This document shows, one piece after another, positions 39,674 through 46,233 of a DNA stretch of 64,000 bases. The DNA lies in contig NZ_JBEWXT010000001.1 of assembly GCF_040538665.1 (NCBI RefSeq), positions 372,001-436,000 on the forward strand, read 5' to 3'. The notes under the pieces were generated by a model that was given only the letters and a program-made list of their open reading frames with translations, ran no database searches and was not told the origin of the DNA. A program made the translations under genes and the position numbers. Origin of the DNA: Aureibaculum sp. 2308TA14-22 (GTDB taxonomy: Bacteria > Bacteroidota > Bacteroidia > Flavobacteriales > Flavobacteriaceae). Position 1 is the stretch's first letter, and each line of letters begins with the position of its first letter.

Positions 39674-40102
39674 TTATTCTGTAAGATTAACCTGCCATGA
39701 AATACCATATTTATCCTCACACCATCCAAATTTTTTACCAAAGCCATAATCTCCTGAACCTTTGTAGTTTTCAAGAGGAACCATTATCTGACCTCCATTT
39801 GAAGAAAGTTTTTCGAATAAGGTTTGTATCTCATTTTCAGAGTTACATTCAACAAACAATGATACACCTGGCGTGAATGACCAAGCGTGATTATAATTAC
39901 TTTCGGAAACCATGTACTTAGTATTATTTAATGTAAATTCTCCATATTTTATAAGCTCTGGTGTTCCTCCAGCTTCTCCCTCTGAATATTTTATGAGGCT
40001 GTTAATTTCCGAATTTGGAAAGATAGAAGTATAGAAATTTATAGCTTCTTCAGCCTTTCCGCATTGATTACCTACAAATGTTAAAAATGTTGTTATTTTC
40101 AT
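39674..40102 (-). CDS. PhnB-like VOC-family protein
   Basis: 142 residues with the glyoxalase/VOC fold in its PhnB form: ITTFLTFVGNQCGKAEEAINFYTSIFPNS at the start and FGWCEDKYGISWQVN at the end. This is the group often labelled 3-demethylubiquinone methyltransferase-like. The enzymatic role is unknown. A second, clearly different member (41252-41677) lies 1.1 kb away inside the cassette array. Confidence 0.85.
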   Translation of the reverse strand: MKITTFLTFVGNQCGKAEEAINFYTSIFPNSEINSLIKYSEGEAGGTPELIKYGEFTLNNTKYMVSESNYNHAWSFTPGVSLFVECNSENEIQTLFEKLSSNGGQIMVPLENYKGSGDYGFGKKFGWCEDKYGISWQVNLTE

Positions 40103-40217: not shown

Positions 40218-41093
40218 TTAGTTTTGAGACAAGTCTGCCTTACATACAATAGATTTCTGCCCAGTTCTTGCCTTATTGTTTGTAATATTTATTTTGGCAC
40301 CATCATTTTCAAGATACCAAAAGTTTTCCTTCACATTATCAATTGGGCTAATTGGTAATTCAAAAGGAATATTTGAGATTTTGTTCTGATTTTCAAAACT
40401 GTTATTGAAGAGTATTGAATTACCAGATAATGTTTGTAAACCAATTTCTAGATCATCAAAGTAAACTTCTGTTGCACCTTTATTCCCTTGAGCAAATTCT
40501 TGTGAGCGTATCGCGAAAGTATAATAGGTAAGAGAAGGTTTGTCAAAAGGGATATAATTTGGATAATCCAGTTGAAAACCATTTAAGTCAAACTCTTGAT
40601 AGATGCCACCACCAACTAGTTTGACTGAAATAAATTCCCTGATTCCAAAATCAGCTGCAATGGTCATTTCATACCAAGTATTTGGTCGTAATTCTTGTCC
40701 AATGTCTCTTGTTTCCCAATTTTCATTGATAGTTGGCACGCCTGACAAGTTTTCTGGTGAACCAGTTCTAAACCAAAAAGTACCATTACGCTGAAATCCT
40801 GCAAGCGACATCCAGTCGGCTCCTTCAAAATGGATAGGGGTGTTAACACCCTCAAGCCACTCGATGTCCAGACCAAAAATAACATCAGCTGCCAAATCAG
40901 ATTCAAAATAAAAATAACCCTTCACATAGGCTTTATCTGGATTTTGAAAGAAATCATTTAATTCTTGGCCGCTATATGCAAAGGCAACTGCGATACTGTT
41001 TATAAATTCTAAAGTATTGGATTTACTACCTTCATCATTTGAACAAGCTACAAAGATTATTGAAAGAATGAAGTATTTTATCTGTTTCATCAT
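40218..41093 (-). CDS. Hypothetical lipoprotein with beta-sandwich look
   Basis: 291 residues. The start MMKQIKYFILSIIFVACSNDEGSKS is a lipoprotein signal; the second ATG is an equally possible start. The mature part is rich in aromatic and beta-forming residues (KGYFYFESDLAADVIFGLDIEW, VYFDDLEIGLQTLSG), like carbohydrate-binding or concanavalin-type sandwiches, but no named family is recognised. Its upstream flank GTTAGCACC continues from attC-like site 5, so it may be the last cassette of the array. I found no matching flank downstream. Confidence 0.7.
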   Translation of the reverse strand: MMKQIKYFILSIIFVACSNDEGSKSNTLEFINSIAVAFAYSGQELNDFFQNPDKAYVKGYFYFESDLAADVIFGLDIEWLEGVNTPIHFEGADWMSLAGFQRNGTFWFRTGSPENLSGVPTINENWETRDIGQELRPNTWYEMTIAADFGIREFISVKLVGGGIYQEFDLNGFQLDYPNYIPFDKPSLTYYTFAIRSQEFAQGNKGATEVYFDDLEIGLQTLSGNSILFNNSFENQNKISNIPFELPISPIDNVKENFWYLENDGAKINITNNKARTGQKSIVCKADLSQN

Positions 41094-41095
41094 AT

Positions 41096-41182
41096 AGGTG
41101 CTAACGCAATTGTGTATAATTTCGTTACGTGAGAACTAAGTTAGCAAAAAAGGACGAACGATTCATATTGTTAACGGCAGGC
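41096..41182 (-). other. attC-like site 5 (degenerate)
   Basis: Minus strand: R''-like GCCTGCCGTTAAC (41182 to 41170), an arm containing AATATGAATCGTTCG, a short loop, an arm ACGAAATTATAC, then GTTAGCACC. The arms pair only partly, and the asymmetric bubble differs from sites 2-4. The outer flank still matches the start of the PhnB-like cassette at 10 of 13 bases. Confidence 0.45.
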
Positions 41183-41251
41183 TTTTTCTTTATTATTCGC
41201 AACATGCTTATTAAAACAGATTCATATCTCTTCATTCATATAAAATACACG

Positions 41252-41677
41252 CTAATTTTCTGATGCTAAAGTTATTTTCCAACTTATGCCAAATTTATCA
41301 ACGCACTGACCATAGTAAGCACCCCAGAATGTCATACCTACGGGTACTTTTATTTGTCCATTTTGAGAAAGTTCGCCAAAGAGCCGGTCAACTTCTTCCT
41401 TACTATCAGTGTGAATAATCAGCGTAAAGGTTTTATAATGTACCATTTCTGCATATGCCAATGAGTTATCTGAACCATTTAGCATTGTCTCTTTACTCAA
41501 AGGCAAGGTGACATGCATAATTTTCTCATCAGACTCTTGAAAAATATTTCTTGCTGGTTTCGGTACGTCTTTGTATTTACTAATATGACTGATTTCTTTA
41601 CGAAAAACTGATTCATAAAAAGTAAATGCTTCTTCACAATTTCCGTCAAAGTAAATGTATGGATTTATTGTTATCAT
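41252..41677 (-). CDS. PhnB-like VOC-family protein (cassette gene)
   Basis: 141 residues from the ATG at 41677 (MITINPYIYFDGNCEEAFTFYESVF), the usual PhnB start. An ATG eight codons upstream is less likely. The end FWGAYYGQCVDKFGISWKI is the conserved PhnB C-terminal motif. It belongs to the glyoxalase/bleomycin-resistance/dioxygenase superfamily; the activity is not known. It is the only gene of its cassette, between attC-like sites 4 and 5, with about 70 non-coding bases before site 5. Confidence 0.82.
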   Translation of the reverse strand: MITINPYIYFDGNCEEAFTFYESVFRKEISHISKYKDVPKPARNIFQESDEKIMHVTLPLSKETMLNGSDNSLAYAEMVHYKTFTLIIHTDSKEEVDRLFGELSQNGQIKVPVGMTFWGAYYGQCVDKFGISWKITLASEN

Positions 41678-41710
41678 AGAATTTAATTTTTGGATATTCA
41701 TTCTATTTTG

Positions 41711-41852
41711 CTTACCGATAACGGTCTCGGCTATGAGTAGTTGCGTGGTTTAGCGGTTAACTTTGCAAGTACACACCAAACTGAAAATCCGGGAGGATTT
41801 TCAGAAGTAGGCGAGAACAAGCAATTACTTATAGCCATTGTTGTAACCAGTT
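41711..41852 (-). other. attC-like site 4
   Basis: Minus strand: AACTGGTTACAAC, then AAT, then stem GGCTATAAGTAATTGC. A loop of about 75 bases contains the smaller hairpin CTGAAAATCC/GGATTTTCAG. Then comes the complementary stem, GAGACC, and GTTATCGGTAAGC. Stem arms differ only at positions 7 and 12 (A on one arm, G on the other when both are read outward-in). The stop codon of the upstream gene lies inside the first arm. Confidence 0.6.
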
Positions 41853-42397
41853 ATTTTTATTCGTTTTATTTGATTTTCTATTTGTAATTCCGTGTTCTTA
41901 AGTTCATTTTGGTCAAGTCCATTATATATTGAGAAGAAATTTTCCTTATCAGATTCAGATTCCTTTTCTAAAACAAACTCAATTCCGACAAGAACATATT
42001 CTGACTCATTATTATTCTTATAAAAATCATATGTCAAAATATTAATTTCAGTAATTACCTTATTTAGATTTTTACTTAACTCTATTTTCGGGTTTTCTTT
42101 CCAAGATAATGGCATTTCATCTCCACTTCCATACCAATTCAGTTTTTCAGATAGTTCAAACGAGTTTATAGTCATACTAAAATCGTCCAATTGATAAGCT
42201 GTGAATTCAAATCTTTGTCCATCTATTTTAAGAACTACAGGTCCATCTGCTAACCATTCGTTTTCGTTCAAGTCCCACATTAACCAATAGTGTTCGATTT
42301 TTTTTCCAATTAATTTGGTAAGAGTTTTTTCAAACTCATTTTTGAAACTTTTTCCACTTCTGTGAAATTTTGGTTTATATGATGGAATTCCGAGCAT
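41825..42397 (-). CDS. Hypothetical protein (cassette gene)
   Basis: 190 residues, soluble, with no signal peptide and no recognised domain. It is rich in lysine, glutamate and tryptophan (HYWLMWDLNENEWLADGPVVL). Its last residues, ITGYNNGYK, are encoded by attC-like site 4 itself (AACTGGTTACAACAATGG...), so recombination at this site would change or extend the C-terminus. The preceding lipoprotein gene lies 19 bases upstream in the same cassette, suggesting a two-gene transcript. Confidence 0.7.
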   Translation of the reverse strand: MLGIPSYKPKFHRSGKSFKNEFEKTLTKLIGKKIEHYWLMWDLNENEWLADGPVVLKIDGQRFEFTAYQLDDFSMTINSFELSEKLNWYGSGDEMPLSWKENPKIELSKNLNKVITEINILTYDFYKNNNESEYVLVGIEFVLEKESESDKENFFSIYNGLDQNELKNTELQIENQIKRIKITGYNNGYK

Positions 42398-42416
42398 TCT
42401 GTTGTAATCAGTTTTT

Positions 42417-42791
42417 TTAATTCACTAATGTCATATAACCCAAAACATCATATGTGTCGTATTTTTTTTGATATTTTAATCTAATTCCAATGTTTTTATA
42501 GTCAGTAAGAATTTCTAAAACACAATCAGCTTTGTTATCGCCATAAGGTTCAGATAAGTCACCTTTTTTTATTCTCAACTCATAGGTTTTTAAACTATCT
42601 GTCAATTCTATCAATTTATTATTTAGTCCTTCTCTAATTCTTATTTCGGAATGATTATATGACGAACCTTTTGCCGGTGGGTTATTCAAAATATCGTGTC
42701 CTATTTTAAGAATTCTTTCTTCATCAATTTTTTCAAAATGTGAACAAGAAAAAATTACAAAAGTGATGATTGTTGTCAAAAAAAATTTCAT
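42417..42791 (-). CDS. Hypothetical small lipoprotein (cassette gene)
   Basis: 124 residues. MKFFLTTIITFVIFSCSHFEKID is a lipoprotein signal with C16 as the predicted lipidated residue. The mature part is charged, with no domain I recognise. It lies immediately after site 3, and its start codon is seven bases after the flank GTTGTAACCAATT. It shares a cassette with the 190-residue hypothetical, so the two may act together, for example as a surface protein and a partner. Nothing in the sequence proves this. Confidence 0.7.
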   Translation of the reverse strand: MKFFLTTIITFVIFSCSHFEKIDEERILKIGHDILNNPPAKGSSYNHSEIRIREGLNNKLIELTDSLKTYELRIKKGDLSEPYGDNKADCVLEILTDYKNIGIRLKYQKKYDTYDVLGYMTLVN

Positions 42792-42797
42792 TGGTGT

Positions 42798-43010
42798 TAA
42801 TTGGTTACAACGGCTCAGTATATGAAAAGTAGCGCTGGGAATAAGCGTTAACTTTTCGGATGAAACACAAGCCGAATTTTTAAATTTTACTATTTATCTT
42901 TTTTATTGGAAATCATCAAATTTAAAAATTTGGCGACTTTCCAAAAATGACCAAACCATAGTGTTAGCAAAGACTTACGCTATTTTTTATATACATTGTT
43001 GTGGGCAGTT
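42798..43010 (-). other. attC-like site 3
   Basis: Minus strand: AAACTGCCCACAAC, AAT, stem GTATATAAAAAATAGCG. A loop of about 130 bases has internal complementary tracts (AAATTTTTAAATTT). Then comes the complementary stem, TGAGCC, and GTTGTAACCAATT. Arms differ only at stem positions 7 and 12. The 3-nt against 6-nt bubble (AAT opposite TGAGCC) is the same as in sites 2 and 4. Confidence 0.62.
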
Positions 43011-43012
43011 TT

Positions 43013-45166
43013 TTACCACCTTCCCATTTCTTCAAGATTCTCTATATCGTAATATTTCTTTTCTTCAAATCCATCTTCGTATGCTTTTTGAAATAATGAT
43101 ATTACCTTATTCTCATTTTCATCAATATCAGCTGGATTAAGATTATCGAACCTATTTTTTACAACCTCTTTATCTATTCCAGGATAAAATTGATATTCGG
43201 CAAGTTGATATCCGACTCTACTGTTAGAAGTCATCCAGCTACGTTTAATAGATAACCAAACATACTTAACTAAATCGTGGTCGTTCTCAATTAGTTTATC
43301 AAAATTTGCCTCGTAATGTTCTTTATAACTTTTATAGACAGTATCCAATATTAATCCAATTTCATCTTCGGCTAAAAATTCGCTTTCAATTAAAATCTTG
43401 TCAAAAAGTTCTTTTGCTATTGAGTTTCTTTTAGACAGAATTTTTTCGATAAATTCCAAGTCACTCTCTTTTTCGAATTTGAAAAGATAATACCATTCGT
43501 TACTTGAATATAATTTACCGTTTTCAGATTGGTTGTTCGCATATAATATTCTATCGCCTAAATAGAATGAAGCAAAACTTACATTTCTTTCTAAATGAGA
43601 GAGGATAAGTTTTCTTCTAACTTCAATATCGTTAATATCATATAACATATTAGAAGCATAATGTAATACTGTTGTTAAATCAGAACCTATGCCCCAAAAC
43701 ATACCCTTTTTATGTGGTAAGTTTTTTGAATAAATTAAAATAGATTCAATGATTTTTTGTTGCTTAAATTCATCACAGCCTTTGCTTTTTATTTTAACCC
43801 AATTAAGGAATTGAAATAATTGTCCTTTTTGTTGTACATTTTTTAAAATGTCTTCATTTTCTTCGGCTGAATTTTCATTTATGAAGCTTTCAAAAACATA
43901 TTCTTGAATGTCAAAATTTGACAATTGAAGATTAAAATATCTGTTGAAATAACTTTCGTTTGCAACTCTTTTACCTCTAATTAAGTCTTCAGGTGTATTT
44001 GCATTGAAGCTATATGAAGAGTCAACTATAAATAATCTTCTTAATATTTGTTTAATTAAATCATTAAATTCTATACTTTCAATAAAAGCGTCGGTAGATT
44101 GCTCATCATTGTTAGAGCGAAAATTAAAATTATTGATATTGTTATCACTTTTGTATACTAAACTTTTTTTATTATCTATGATAAACTTGTAAGCTTTTTG
44201 GTCAAATACTCTTAAAGACTCAATTAATAAAAAATCCAAGATGTTTAATTCATTCACTATTGAAGGTAAACGTAACTTTATACTATTATTAAACCTGTAG
44301 ATATCTCTTAATGAAGAAAAAAAGTTAATAAACGGTTCACTTTTAATAGATTCATTTAATTCTTTAATTTTATCAGTTATCTCATCATCATTAAAAAGTA
44401 TATTTAAATTATCTATGAACAATCTTGATATATCTTCTTTGGAAATTGAAGGTAACGTGTAATCGACTTGAACAATTTTTTCAATATATTTTTTTCCATT
44501 TTCGCCGAATTGATTTTCTAATGCCGTCTGAACTACATTTTGGTCATAAGCTAAAATAAAAATCGTGTTCGCGAAATTCCCGTTTAATTTAATTAATTGA
44601 AAAATATCAGTTATTTCATTAGGTGTTAACCTGTCGATATCATCGATAGTAATATATAATTTTACTTTTGATTCAATTAAAATGTTATCAATTTCCTTTT
44701 TCAGTTCGGAAAGTTCTTTTTCTTTTCCTGCTTTTTTAAAAATATTTTTTAATGATTTTAATGCCTCTCCAGCCCCAGAATGTACGTAATTAACCCAATT
44801 CAAGTATTCTAAAAATTCAGCTATTTTCTTTGAAGCATTTTTTAGTTTTTCAGAGTTGTTTTTTAATTTTAGAATTAACTCTCTTAAGAATACACTTTGT
44901 AATTCCTTTTGACCAGAAAACATCCAAGGATTGAATCTTAAAACAATAATCTCTTGATTTATACTTGAAGAGATTTCTTCAACTTCGTTAATAATGAAAT
45001 TCAGCAAAGTTGATTTTCCAGAACCCCAAGTCCCATTAATTCCAAGGACAATACTTTCATTATTGTCCTTAAAAGATTTAACCAAACCAGATGCTATTTC
45101 ATATGCGAATGGATGCCTACCTAATTTATCGGTTGAATTTTCTTTTAATGGTAAATCTGTATGCAT
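43013..45166 (-). CDS. KAP-family P-loop NTPase (cassette gene)
   Basis: 717 residues. Walker A is GTWGSGKST (residues 45-53), followed by VLRFNPWMFSGQKELQ (the KAP RFNPW motif) and Walker B ITIDDIDRL (DDID at 175-178). A sensor-like region follows (FILAYDQNVVQTAL). The C-terminal 400 residues are helical with no named domain, and no membrane insert is evident in the usual place. KAP NTPases include the phage-exclusion protein PifA and other defence-linked ATPases, so an anti-phage role is plausible but unproven. At 2.2 kb it is a large insert for a cassette, flanked exactly by GTTGTGGGCA and its complement. Confidence 0.85.
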   Translation of the reverse strand: MHTDLPLKENSTDKLGRHPFAYEIASGLVKSFKDNNESIVLGINGTWGSGKSTLLNFIINEVEEISSSINQEIIVLRFNPWMFSGQKELQSVFLRELILKLKNNSEKLKNASKKIAEFLEYLNWVNYVHSGAGEALKSLKNIFKKAGKEKELSELKKEIDNILIESKVKLYITIDDIDRLTPNEITDIFQLIKLNGNFANTIFILAYDQNVVQTALENQFGENGKKYIEKIVQVDYTLPSISKEDISRLFIDNLNILFNDDEITDKIKELNESIKSEPFINFFSSLRDIYRFNNSIKLRLPSIVNELNILDFLLIESLRVFDQKAYKFIIDNKKSLVYKSDNNINNFNFRSNNDEQSTDAFIESIEFNDLIKQILRRLFIVDSSYSFNANTPEDLIRGKRVANESYFNRYFNLQLSNFDIQEYVFESFINENSAEENEDILKNVQQKGQLFQFLNWVKIKSKGCDEFKQQKIIESILIYSKNLPHKKGMFWGIGSDLTTVLHYASNMLYDINDIEVRRKLILSHLERNVSFASFYLGDRILYANNQSENGKLYSSNEWYYLFKFEKESDLEFIEKILSKRNSIAKELFDKILIESEFLAEDEIGLILDTVYKSYKEHYEANFDKLIENDHDLVKYVWLSIKRSWMTSNSRVGYQLAEYQFYPGIDKEVVKNRFDNLNPADIDENENKVISLFQKAYEDGFEEKKYYDIENLEEMGRW

Positions 45167-45180
45167 TTACTGGTTTTTTT

Positions 45181-45324
45181 AAATTGCCCACAACGGTAAA
45201 GTATAAGCGTAGTGCGGGTTTCAAAGCACTTTACTTTCAGTTTGCACTATTGCTTGTTAATATCTAATTCGTTCATTTTAAGCACTTCACCCCGCATTAC
45301 GTTTATACATTGTTACCTGCTGGC
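45181..45324 (-). other. attC-like site 2
   Basis: Minus strand: GCCAGCAGGTAAC, AAT, stem GTATAAACGTAATGCGGG. A loop of about 70 bases has two further AAGTGCTT tracts able to pair. Then comes the complementary stem, TTTACC, and GTTGTGGGCAATTT. Arms differ only at stem positions 7 and 12. It contains the stop codon of the upstream gene. This is the clearest site of the set. Confidence 0.65.
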
Positions 45325-46019
45325 ATTTCTTTCAATTTATTTAATATTCTTCTATTTCGTCTCTCAATTAAGTCTAAAGTATGAACTCTGTAATCATTGT
45401 ATTCTTCGGCTGTTAAAGGCAAAGGTGAACGATTAAAATTATCAAATGGCAAAGCAAAATTCACTTCTCTATCTTTTGTCAGAAAGTCCTGTAGTTGAAA
45501 AAAATCAATATATCCATCAAAACTCTCAAAAAGAGCAAAAAAATCATCGTATCTCTCAATAGCTTTACTCAATGGACTCTGCATATTTTCATAAAATCTT
45601 TTGATACATTCAATTGTCAAGTCAAATCTATCACAAATTAATCTACTAACTCCTCTGGCTTGATTTATAGTAAATCCATCTTTTCTATGAGCAGGAAAAA
45701 CAATATGTCCTCCTATTGTTCTAACTTTATTCTGGAAATTTTCTTCTTGAGATTCACTTAACCAACCGTTAAATTTCCCTTTGTATTTCCCAACAAAATG
45801 AGGACACATTCTATCACTTGACAAGTTCATATACAACTTGTTTTTCAATAAGAATCGTCCATATTTATCTCCAATCACCTTAAAATCAAATGATTTTCCG
45901 CAAGGCAGAGTTTTATTCCATAAAGTTTGGTGAGCTTCATATAATTTTAAGCTATCCGTATCTGGGTCTCCACACTTAGAGTCCAATCTAAAATCATATG
46001 TTATATCAATTACATTCAT
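45303..46019 (-). CDS. DUF6994-like hypothetical protein (cassette gene)
   Basis: 238 residues, soluble. The start ITYDFRLDSKCGDPDTDSLKLYEAHQTLWNKTLPCGKSFDF resembles the uncharacterised DUF6994 family. The following GKFNGWLSESQEENFQNKVRTIGGHIVFPAHRKDGFTINQARG fits as well. There is no signal peptide, and the function is unknown. The last residues (MPAGNNV) and the stop are encoded within attC-like site 2. It is the first cassette after site 1, reading in gene direction. Confidence 0.75.
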   Translation of the reverse strand: MNVIDITYDFRLDSKCGDPDTDSLKLYEAHQTLWNKTLPCGKSFDFKVIGDKYGRFLLKNKLYMNLSSDRMCPHFVGKYKGKFNGWLSESQEENFQNKVRTIGGHIVFPAHRKDGFTINQARGVSRLICDRFDLTIECIKRFYENMQSPLSKAIERYDDFFALFESFDGYIDFFQLQDFLTKDREVNFALPFDNFNRSPLPLTAEEYNDYRVHTLDLIERRNRRILNKLKEMPAGNNV

Positions 46020-46059
46020 TTCTTACTTTCTCTGCTCCCTGCTCTCTACTCTGTCTTTG

Positions 46060-46114
46060 CTTGCAGGTAACAACTGTATAACCGCATTGCGGTTATATCG
46101 TTTATAATTGCAAG
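46060..46114 (-). other. attC-like site 1 (short palindromic form, start of array)
   Basis: CTTGCA and TGCAAG form the outermost pair. The inner arms GTATAACCGC / GCGGTTATAT close on a 3-base loop, with no long variable loop. Unlike sites 2-4, its two outer flanks are complementary to each other. The flank toward the gene, GTTACCTGCAAGC, also matches the far end of that gene's unit (11 of 13). Confidence 0.5.
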
Positions 46115-46184
46115 ATACTTATTTAATTTAATACTAATGGTCAAAAGCATTACTATTAGAGCTTTTGTTGGGTGGTGATAAAAG

Positions 46185-46220
46185 AATTATCCGTTTGTTA
46201 ACCGTTAAAAACGGATAATT
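46185..46220 (+). terminator. Strong orphan hairpin with T tract
   Basis: A perfect 12-bp stem AATTATCCGTTT / AAACGGATAATT has a 12-base loop containing TTAAC/GTTAA, and is followed by TTTTTATCCG on the plus strand. No plus-strand gene ends nearby. It lies between the asd terminator and attC-like site 1. Confidence 0.45.
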
Positions 46221-46233
46221 TTTTATCCGTAAA

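Follow-up and report, generated by a model that had tools for sequence, protein, structure and literature searches.

How do neighbouring genes come to be bounded by ends that are complementary to each other across the gene, in a sequence that changes from one gene unit to the next? The question is raised by a 64,000-nucleotide (nt) stretch of the flavobacterium Aureibaculum sp. 2308TA14-22 (contig NZ_JBEWXT010000001.1, positions 372,001 to 436,000 of the forward strand), the whole of which we call the window and whose numbering supplies the plain coordinates below. An earlier note, made from the letters of this DNA, had proposed that accessory gene units read on the minus strand from 46.1 to 41.1 kb form an integron-like array that is moved by a divergent or unrecognised recombination system. 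Our comparisons indicate that the region is very probably a cassette array of an integron-like system, with a tyrosine recombinase of the type we call P0001, an attI-like head and attC-like sites. This reading is carried by unit ends that pair only within their own unit, by hairpin sites with a strand asymmetry, by the edges of repeated cassettes, by attI copies followed by different first cassettes, and by an association with a single recombinase clade. To what the note contained we add the recombinase, the attI, the strand-asymmetric hairpin and the distribution.

Unit ends and hairpin sites

The array consists of four co-oriented units, all on the minus strand, whose cargo is, in order, a DUF6994 protein, a KAP NTPase, two proteins without a Pfam match and a PhnB/3-dmu-9_3-mt family protein. 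Each unit begins with an R' box opening in GTT and ends with an R'' box closing in AAC, and the two ends are complementary only within their own unit. The features are as follows, read from the array head; R1 denotes a site model built from 48 sites picked by stem score, and box matches refer to 10 scored positions.

46118..46221, minus: stretch upstream of the attI-like element, inverted repeat seen by eye
46072..46117, minus: attI-like element, array head, stops right before the first GTT, holds the inverted repeat ATAACCGCAATGCGGTTAT
46058..46071, minus: R' box of cassette 1 (GTTACCTGCAAGCA), matches own R'' at 9/10
45303..46019, minus: cassette 1 gene, DUF6994 family, 238 amino acids (aa), PF22507 at 275.8 bits; its 3' end extends through the R'' box
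45312..45325, minus: R'' box of cassette 1, partner of R' at 9/10
45192..45314, minus: attC-like hairpin site 1 (R'' AAC to R' GTT), R1 71.0 bits, E 8.2e-11, among the 48 model sites
45181..45194, minus: R' box of cassette 2 (GTTGTGGGCAATTT), matches own R'' at 10/10
43013..45166, minus: cassette 2 gene, KAP P-loop NTPase, 717 aa, PifA-like, PF07693 at 147 bits, PADLOC PifA at 208.6 bits
42998..43011, minus: R'' box of cassette 2, partner of R' at 10/10
42809..43000, minus: attC-like hairpin site 2, long form, R1 53.8 bits, E 2e-7, outside the model set
42798..42811, minus: R' box of cassette 3 (GTTGTAACCAATTA), matches own R'' at 10/10
42417..42791, minus: cassette 3 first gene, 124 aa, no Pfam match at E<=0.01
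41825..42397, minus: cassette 3 second gene, 190 aa, no Pfam match at E<=0.01
41840..41853, minus: R'' box of cassette 3, partner of R' at 10/10
41720..41842, minus: attC-like hairpin site 3, R1 98.2 bits, E 3.7e-16, used in the model
41709..41722, minus: R' box of cassette 4 (GTTATCGGTAAGCA), matches own R'' at 7/10
41252..41701, minus: cassette 4 gene, PhnB/3-dmu-9_3-mt family, 149 aa, PF06983 at 60.1 bits
41170..41183, minus: R'' box of cassette 4, partner of R' at 7/10
41090..41172, minus: degenerate terminal site, no R1 match at E<=0.05

The complementary flanks that the note had described for each unit are all present in the window: scored at the 10 variable positions beyond GTT/AAC (4-10 and 12-14), R' and R'' agree at 9/10 in the DUF6994 unit, 10/10 in the KAP unit, 10/10 in the two-gene unit and 7/10 in the PhnB-like unit. 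Its statement that the flank sequence is specific to the unit is borne out by a 4x4 cross table, in which the own partner stands at the top of every row (9, 10, 10 and 7, with a runner-up of 6 in the PhnB row). Among the 2425 AAC triplets of the window, both strands included, two reach the observed score in each of the DUF6994, KAP and two-gene units, which we take to be the true partner and the box itself, as the count includes the latter; the PhnB unit is the weakest of the four because 10 of the 2425 triplets reach its score. A second gene of the PhnB/3-dmu-9_3-mt family lies close to the one in cassette 4, at 39674-40102, outside the array.

The same end rule holds well beyond this window. 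With the spacer of site 3 as blastn query, matches were obtained in 30 of 60 genomes including Aureibaculum itself, with many copies in some, and 20 further stretches were taken because they hold such matches. A scanner which requires AACANNG, a stem and CGTT, and which ignores R'/R'' complementarity, returned 147 sites at a score of at least 20 in the window and these 20 stretches, from which 123 adjacent pairs were formed. At positions 4-10, R' agrees with the reverse complement of the R'' of its own unit in at least 5 of 7 bases in 118 of the 123 pairs, against 11.4% for shuffled partners. Position 11 of R' is A in 123/123 and never finds a complementary base, facing C (an A.C mismatch) in 108 of them, after which positions 12-14 match again at 79-92%. 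The combination of R'', hairpin and R' from one unit, which the note expected of an excised circle that unites both flanks in one site, thus holds across the arrays of many genomes. The note was also right that the boxes do not follow the RYYYAAC/GTTRRRY pattern: R' fits GTTRRRY in 8 of the 147 sites and R'' likewise in 8, where 1/16 is expected for random bases with GTT fixed.

The units are separated by imperfect hairpins, about 120 or 190 nt long, which hold the boxes (AACAATGGCTATAAGTAATTGC...GCAACTACTCATAGCCGAGACCGTT and variants) and share the architecture R''-spacer-L''-loop-L'-spacer-R', with the spacer unpaired. Mismatches in the L stem are strongly one-sided: over the 135 of 147 sites with at least 12/18 Watson-Crick pairs in this stem, the top strand carries 357 A.C/C.A and 19 G.T/T.G mismatches, the next commonest being T.C with 100. 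Since an A.C mismatch of the top strand reads as G.T in the bottom one, it is the strand opposite the genes that folds better; with DNA parameters its mean fold energy is -28.1 kcal/mol vs -23.5 kcal/mol for the gene strand, and among the 123 circle-form sites (R'' + hairpin + own R') this bottom strand has the lower value in 122, an asymmetry that arises from the A.C (top) = G.T (bottom) pairs. An alignment of 48 bottom-strand sites has 95.4% of its cells paired, a share inflated by the choice of the sites by stem score; changes on both sides occur in 12 of its 20 pairs (shuffled mean 8.0, 0/500 as high), and two G.T pairs are conserved in 44/48 and 48/48 sites. IntI integrons use the bottom strand of their attC sites, the choice being made by a specific extrahelical base, as described in an excerpt of PMC2727003, and by analogy the wobble pairs could take the role of that base here.

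Cassette edges and cargo

Where a cassette is present in several copies, its edges can be read from the comparison. In one genome (G030), a cassette of 557-560 bp occurs in 13 copies across two arrays, with three pairs in tandem. When the edges are set at C|GTT, the first 12 bases, counted from GTT, and the last 8 ahead of the following GTT are the same in every one of the 13, while the columns outside vary, as expected for differing neighbouring sites and cassettes. Seven other copies of equal length were compared ungapped with the first, five of which show 3-5 differences and the remaining two 39 and 69, probably through shifts. The same integrase and attI occur at two loci of G010 and one of G007, identical over 47-48 nt through ...TATCCCTTC|GTT and followed by different cassettes, and in a second G010 pair the attI is identical over 50 nt up to GTT before the cassettes diverge. 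Cassettes therefore appear, by comparison of copies, to move as precise units whose edges lie at GTT. The note would have given up its reading if no units were gained or lost at the GTT boundary; exactly such gain and loss is seen among the copies in G030, G010 and G007.

A palindromic cassette that looks gene-less (GTTGAAGAAGAATTCG...) recurs behind the sites of other cassettes (L393, L395, L397, L399 and others), with 5 matches each in G096 and G231, and is perhaps a selfish mini-cassette. A repeat in family f36 was at first taken for a miniature inverted-repeat transposable element (MITE) holding cassettes; its copies instead suggest this gene-less palindromic cassette, repeated inside arrays.

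Most cassettes carry a gene in the direction of the array, the longest open reading frame (ORF) being sense in 183 of 206 cassettes, antisense in 9 and absent in 14. The cassettes yielded 177 distinct proteins, of which 139 were scanned, and these match 79 Pfam families, 13 of which match more than one protein. Among the 25 families listed for each of Pfam and PADLOC, the PADLOC matches include HamB and PtuA, of the Hachiman and Septu systems respectively, together with HerA and type II methyltransferases, and Pfam adds WapI-like immunity proteins.

The recombinase, attI-like heads and distribution

The note had found no tyrosine recombinase in the window, and the best integrase matches of the Aureibaculum genome do all lie outside it. 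The best of them, P0001, is a 364-aa tyrosine recombinase at G000:C1:2368675-2369766, and directly behind its stop codon stands the same attI-like element that heads the window array, with an array of its own after it. A recombinase near an array, one of the things the note suggested looking for, is thus found within the same genome, with an attI-like site beside it. P0001 combines domains PF13495 and PF00589, and against NCBIfam it stays below the cut-off of both its best model, XerA_Arch (185.1 bits, cut-off 220), and the IntI model TIGR02249 (174.3 bits, cut-off 265). R-K-HxxR-H-Y are the catalytic residues of tyrosine recombinases, and in P0001 they correspond to R219, K244, H308, R311, H334 and Y343, invariant over 26 aligned relatives. 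Inserts of ~31 and ~11 residues are seen in the four IntIs displayed from the same phylum and are absent from the 12 array recombinases displayed; the IntI-specific additional domain is needed for recombination, according to an excerpt of PMC9668308.

In a tree of 74 proteins, sampled by similarity to P0001 and rooted for drawing only, 42 recombinases of the P0001 set, with or without a known array, form one clade (99/93), while IntI forms a separate clade (100/100) and Xer a third (100/100). An AlphaFold model of the relative in Winogradskyella ursingii (mean predicted local distance difference test score 87.0, predicted template-modelling (TM) score 0.60) has XerA and IntI4 as its closest solved folds by E-value in Foldseek, with TM-scores of 0.4-0.54 by query length. 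In the Aureibaculum genome a single P0001-clade recombinase was found, along with XerC/D-like recombinases, and since this one lies elsewhere in the genome, the window presents an array that is headed by an attI and lacks an adjacent integrase.

The left box of the DUF6994 unit is a junction with a separate element, the attI-like one at 46072-46117, which recurs in the genome: it has 11 matches there at E<=0.001, 8 of which were read, and all 8 stop before GTT. Window positions 46070-46221, attI included, are 85.5% identical over 152 nt (blastn) to one copy (L104), and three copies (window, L104 and L110) share about 130-150 bp including attI, with an inverted repeat upstream seen by eye.

Recombinases of this type were then related to sites in other genomes. 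The 48 loci examined yielded 43 recombinase ORFs, six of them in loci that had been chosen for their sites: 25 are followed by a site in the same orientation, 3 stand beside a divergent array, 10 are no more than 925 bp away from a contig edge and 5 have none. The 37 loci chosen for the recombinase alone divide similarly (20 co-oriented site, 2 divergent, 10 contig edge, 5 none). The integrase is thus co-oriented with its array in 25 of the 28 linked bacterial loci, and a divergent arrangement is also seen in L202, L204 and L254. In 24 loci, made up of 23 of the 25 co-oriented ones (those with an untruncated gene) and L210, the R' of the first cassette was sought behind the recombinase and found at 8/10 or better in 16, in 15 of which it lies 34-135 nt behind the stop codon; the sequence before this first R' is by eye alike between close recombinases and different between distant ones.

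The note had also suggested a custom site model, and applied to 198 Bacteroidota genomes R1 finds sites (E<=1e-4) in 65; a P0001-clade recombinase is present in 70 and both in 42 (Fisher P=4e-9, with a clade threshold of >=240 bits picked after the scores had been seen and a test that ignores relatedness). Among genomes with at least four sites, 21 of 25 have the recombinase, and one genome has 105 R1 matches. For the best 80 recombinase loci of named contigs, sites at E<=0.05 were found in 18, with 49 of 51 sites on the recombinase strand; carriers include Algibacter onchidii, Winogradskyella ursingii, Seonamhaeicola aphaedonensis, Algoriphagus ornithinivorans and Flavobacterium aciduliphilum. 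Three genomes of family f36 (G096, G112 and G150) hold a true IntI, a P0001-clade recombinase and R1 sites together. An R1-free search for the end rule, with a weak detector, found none at 32 recombinase loci taken as non-Bacteroidota, two of which, L269 and L274, are Bacteroidota by name; R1 has no match in the 30 of 32 loci left after these two, and one in L274. On seven comparison loci the same detector found units in five, both strands alike, and none in L261 and L236, the former also lacking an R1 match and the latter having one.

Related recombinases are found at >=80 loci of viral contigs, with R1 matches at E<=0.05 in 39 of the 80 listed, and 150 of the 152 matches in these lie on the strand that places the array opposite the recombinase; L360 and L362, with identical positions, are probably one sequence. 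Five IMG/VR contigs (L354, L344, L338, L328 and L330) carry their own recombinase with an array on the opposite strand, whose 41 adjacent pairs follow the end rule in 33 cases (14.8% when shuffled); most of the cassette bodies are short, 29 of the 41 measuring only 122-350 nt. Ten neighbour proteins were compared with PHROGs, one being without a match and one matching transposases only; the genes recognised include tail-fibre attachment/RNA ligase (L354), ribonucleotide reductase and SbcC (L315) and helicase (L328). A search with phrog_2 as proof of phage identity was dropped as uninformative, with matches in 11 of 14 control genomes. In Freya_1 and Ingeline_1, two named phages, the stretches examined have a related integrase and no site.

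Plasmids hold two further cases. On pHH1107 (L403, 4061-6105), tpnF, which stands beside tet(X3), is a P0001 relative (49.4% identity over 66% of the query), and an attI-like sequence ending at a GTT box lies between the two genes; the best R''-like partner (7/10) stands behind the tet(X3) stop and is top of 274 AAC triplets besides the box itself. R1 finds no site in the tet(X3) region, its only score being 18.1 bits inside tpnF. This arrangement may mean that tet(X3) was formerly the first cassette in a P0001-type array. In the Chryseobacterium plasmid NZ_CP041688.1 (L404, 5971-11597), three R1 sites follow a recombinase that is annotated as 'site-specific tyrosine recombinase/integron integrase'.

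Mechanism, alternatives and known systems

We propose that P0001 would recombine the folded single bottom strand of a cassette site with the double-stranded attI-like site or with another cassette site, with exchange at, and presumably inside, GTT. In the excised circle the cassette's own R'' and R' would meet around the hairpin, and after insertion the boxes would be parted again, both carried by the cassette; because the circle joins its own two boxes, the ends of each unit are complementary only to each other. The window array would have kept its attI-like head and, as no integrase lies beside it, would either be served in trans or be a fossil. The earlier proposal of an integron-like array with a divergent or unrecognised system is in this way supported by the circle site, by gain and loss at GTT, and by a recombinase with attI heading an array.

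Several observations weigh against this reading. Five recombinase loci have no site (in one of them the ORF is a fragment of 97 aa), and the linked set includes some weak sites (L141, E 0.027). Among the 198 genomes, 23 of the 65 with sites lack a recombinase at >=240 bits and 28 of the 70 with the recombinase lack sites; in G145, G196, G208 and G218 five or more sites occur and the recombinase was not found. The post hoc threshold and shared descent bear on the Fisher test, as the selection of the 48 model sites and the non-independence of related sites do on their alignment. All five misses of the end rule fall in one locus (L057), where they may be caused by a site subtype; the recombinase there is divergent from its array and short (284 aa). 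The L125/L128 pair already differs inside attI; a recognisable first cassette (>=8/10) follows 4 of the 6 attI-like copies tested in the Aureibaculum genome, the window's included; and 8 of the 24 recombinase loci stay below 8/10 in a test that takes the best GTT in range. In the window itself, the PhnB unit has the weakest flank pair (7/10), and the terminal site behind it shows no stem like the other sites (best fold -6.0 kcal/mol) and no recognisable R' box.

The alternative that survives best accepts the array and assigns cassette movement to another enzyme, the linked recombinase only integrating the island. Arrays without a recombinase (G218 and others) and the XerC/D-like recombinases of the genome would suit it; however, the recombinase adjoins the insertion point, attI is alike between close recombinases, and sites co-occur with the P0001 clade, so that we consider it unlikely. 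We regard as very unlikely an ordinary IntI integron that has lost its integrase and whose attC sites have drifted. Such an element would have the same architecture, with mostly co-oriented genes and attI at the head, and IntI exceeds the cut-off in 57 of the 198 genomes; yet only 18 of those have sites (P=0.87), no IntI above cut-off was found in the Aureibaculum genome or in the 19 genomes of its family among the 198, R' seldom fits GTTRRRY, seven of nine IntI loci scanned have no site and the other two have sites of another sequence type, and it is another recombinase, the P0001 clade, that heads arrays. It is highly improbable that a MITE or insertion-sequence family spreads the spacers, with genes between copies by accident: the spacers are indeed repeated and palindromic, and attI-like copies are dispersed in the genome, but R' and R'' vary between units and match within a unit, the copied unit is gene plus site and ends at GTT, and a recombinase stands at many array heads. 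Finally, that the hairpins between these mostly co-oriented genes are transcription terminators or RNA elements between operons, with flank complementarity by chance, can be almost wholly discounted, as the complementarity spans the gene and is unit-specific, the wobble pairs benefit the strand antisense to the genes, entire cassettes are found in copies with exact edges (13 of one cassette), and an Rfam scan of the region found no family at the array sites, its single match (E 0.78, chance level) lying outside them.

Our best reading of these sequences is therefore a parallel integron class, with integrase, attI and attC-like sites, and not a member of the IntI type, since tests for that type fail on the integrase domain and on the R boxes. 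We think it likely that Bacteroidota and some phages, probably of Bacteroidota, own this second class, characterised by an integrase without the IntI domain, strand choice by G.T wobbles, and a cassette-private R stem of ~14 nt with an obligatory break; maybe one integrase serves many dispersed attI in trans, and the tet(X3)/tpnF unit is maybe descended from it. We found no description of the system in the titles and opening lines of abstracts among the papers listed from the open-licence literature, a scope that leaves aside most subscription journals and all preprints. If the reading is correct, a major phylum possesses a separate integron class, which phages share and whose cargo includes anti-phage and other accessory genes, and a large pool of gene exchange goes uncounted because standard integron searches are expected to miss it; how integrases came to use folded single strands would also become testable on a clade without the IntI domain.

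Set beside IntI integrons, the system shares an integrase gene with adjacent attI and arrays of small, mostly co-oriented cassettes, as well as hairpin sites with R, spacer, L and variable loop, a favoured bottom strand and GTT edges (canonical features as in the excerpt of PMC2727003). It differs in a recombinase clade without the IntI-specific insertion, in an R stem of ~14 nt broken at position 11 instead of a 7-nt GTTRRRY/RYYYAAC box, in G.T wobbles as the source of strand asymmetry, in an integrase mostly co-oriented with the array, and in several attI copies in one genome. Like a CALIN (a cluster of attC sites without integrase), the window array has no integrase beside it, but unlike a CALIN it has an attI-like head and a non-canonical site sequence. 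Of the XerA, XerC and XerD recombinases, XerA is with IntI4 the nearest solved fold by E-value, whereas the P0001 clade is separate in the tree and linked to arrays. The clade may fall within the 'Integron-like' subgroup of simple tyrosine recombinases in PMC8138268; the available part of that paper links no member lacking the insertion to arrays and describes the insertion as essential if an integron is to function. Unlike those members, the P0001 clade is linked to arrays. Phages can carry cassette sites, one of them a Polaribacter phage, and IntI1 used five of six tested sites (PMC9892861, in part); unlike the phages in that portion of the source, the phage contigs here have a P0001-like recombinase of their own and, on the opposite strand, an array with many very short cassettes.

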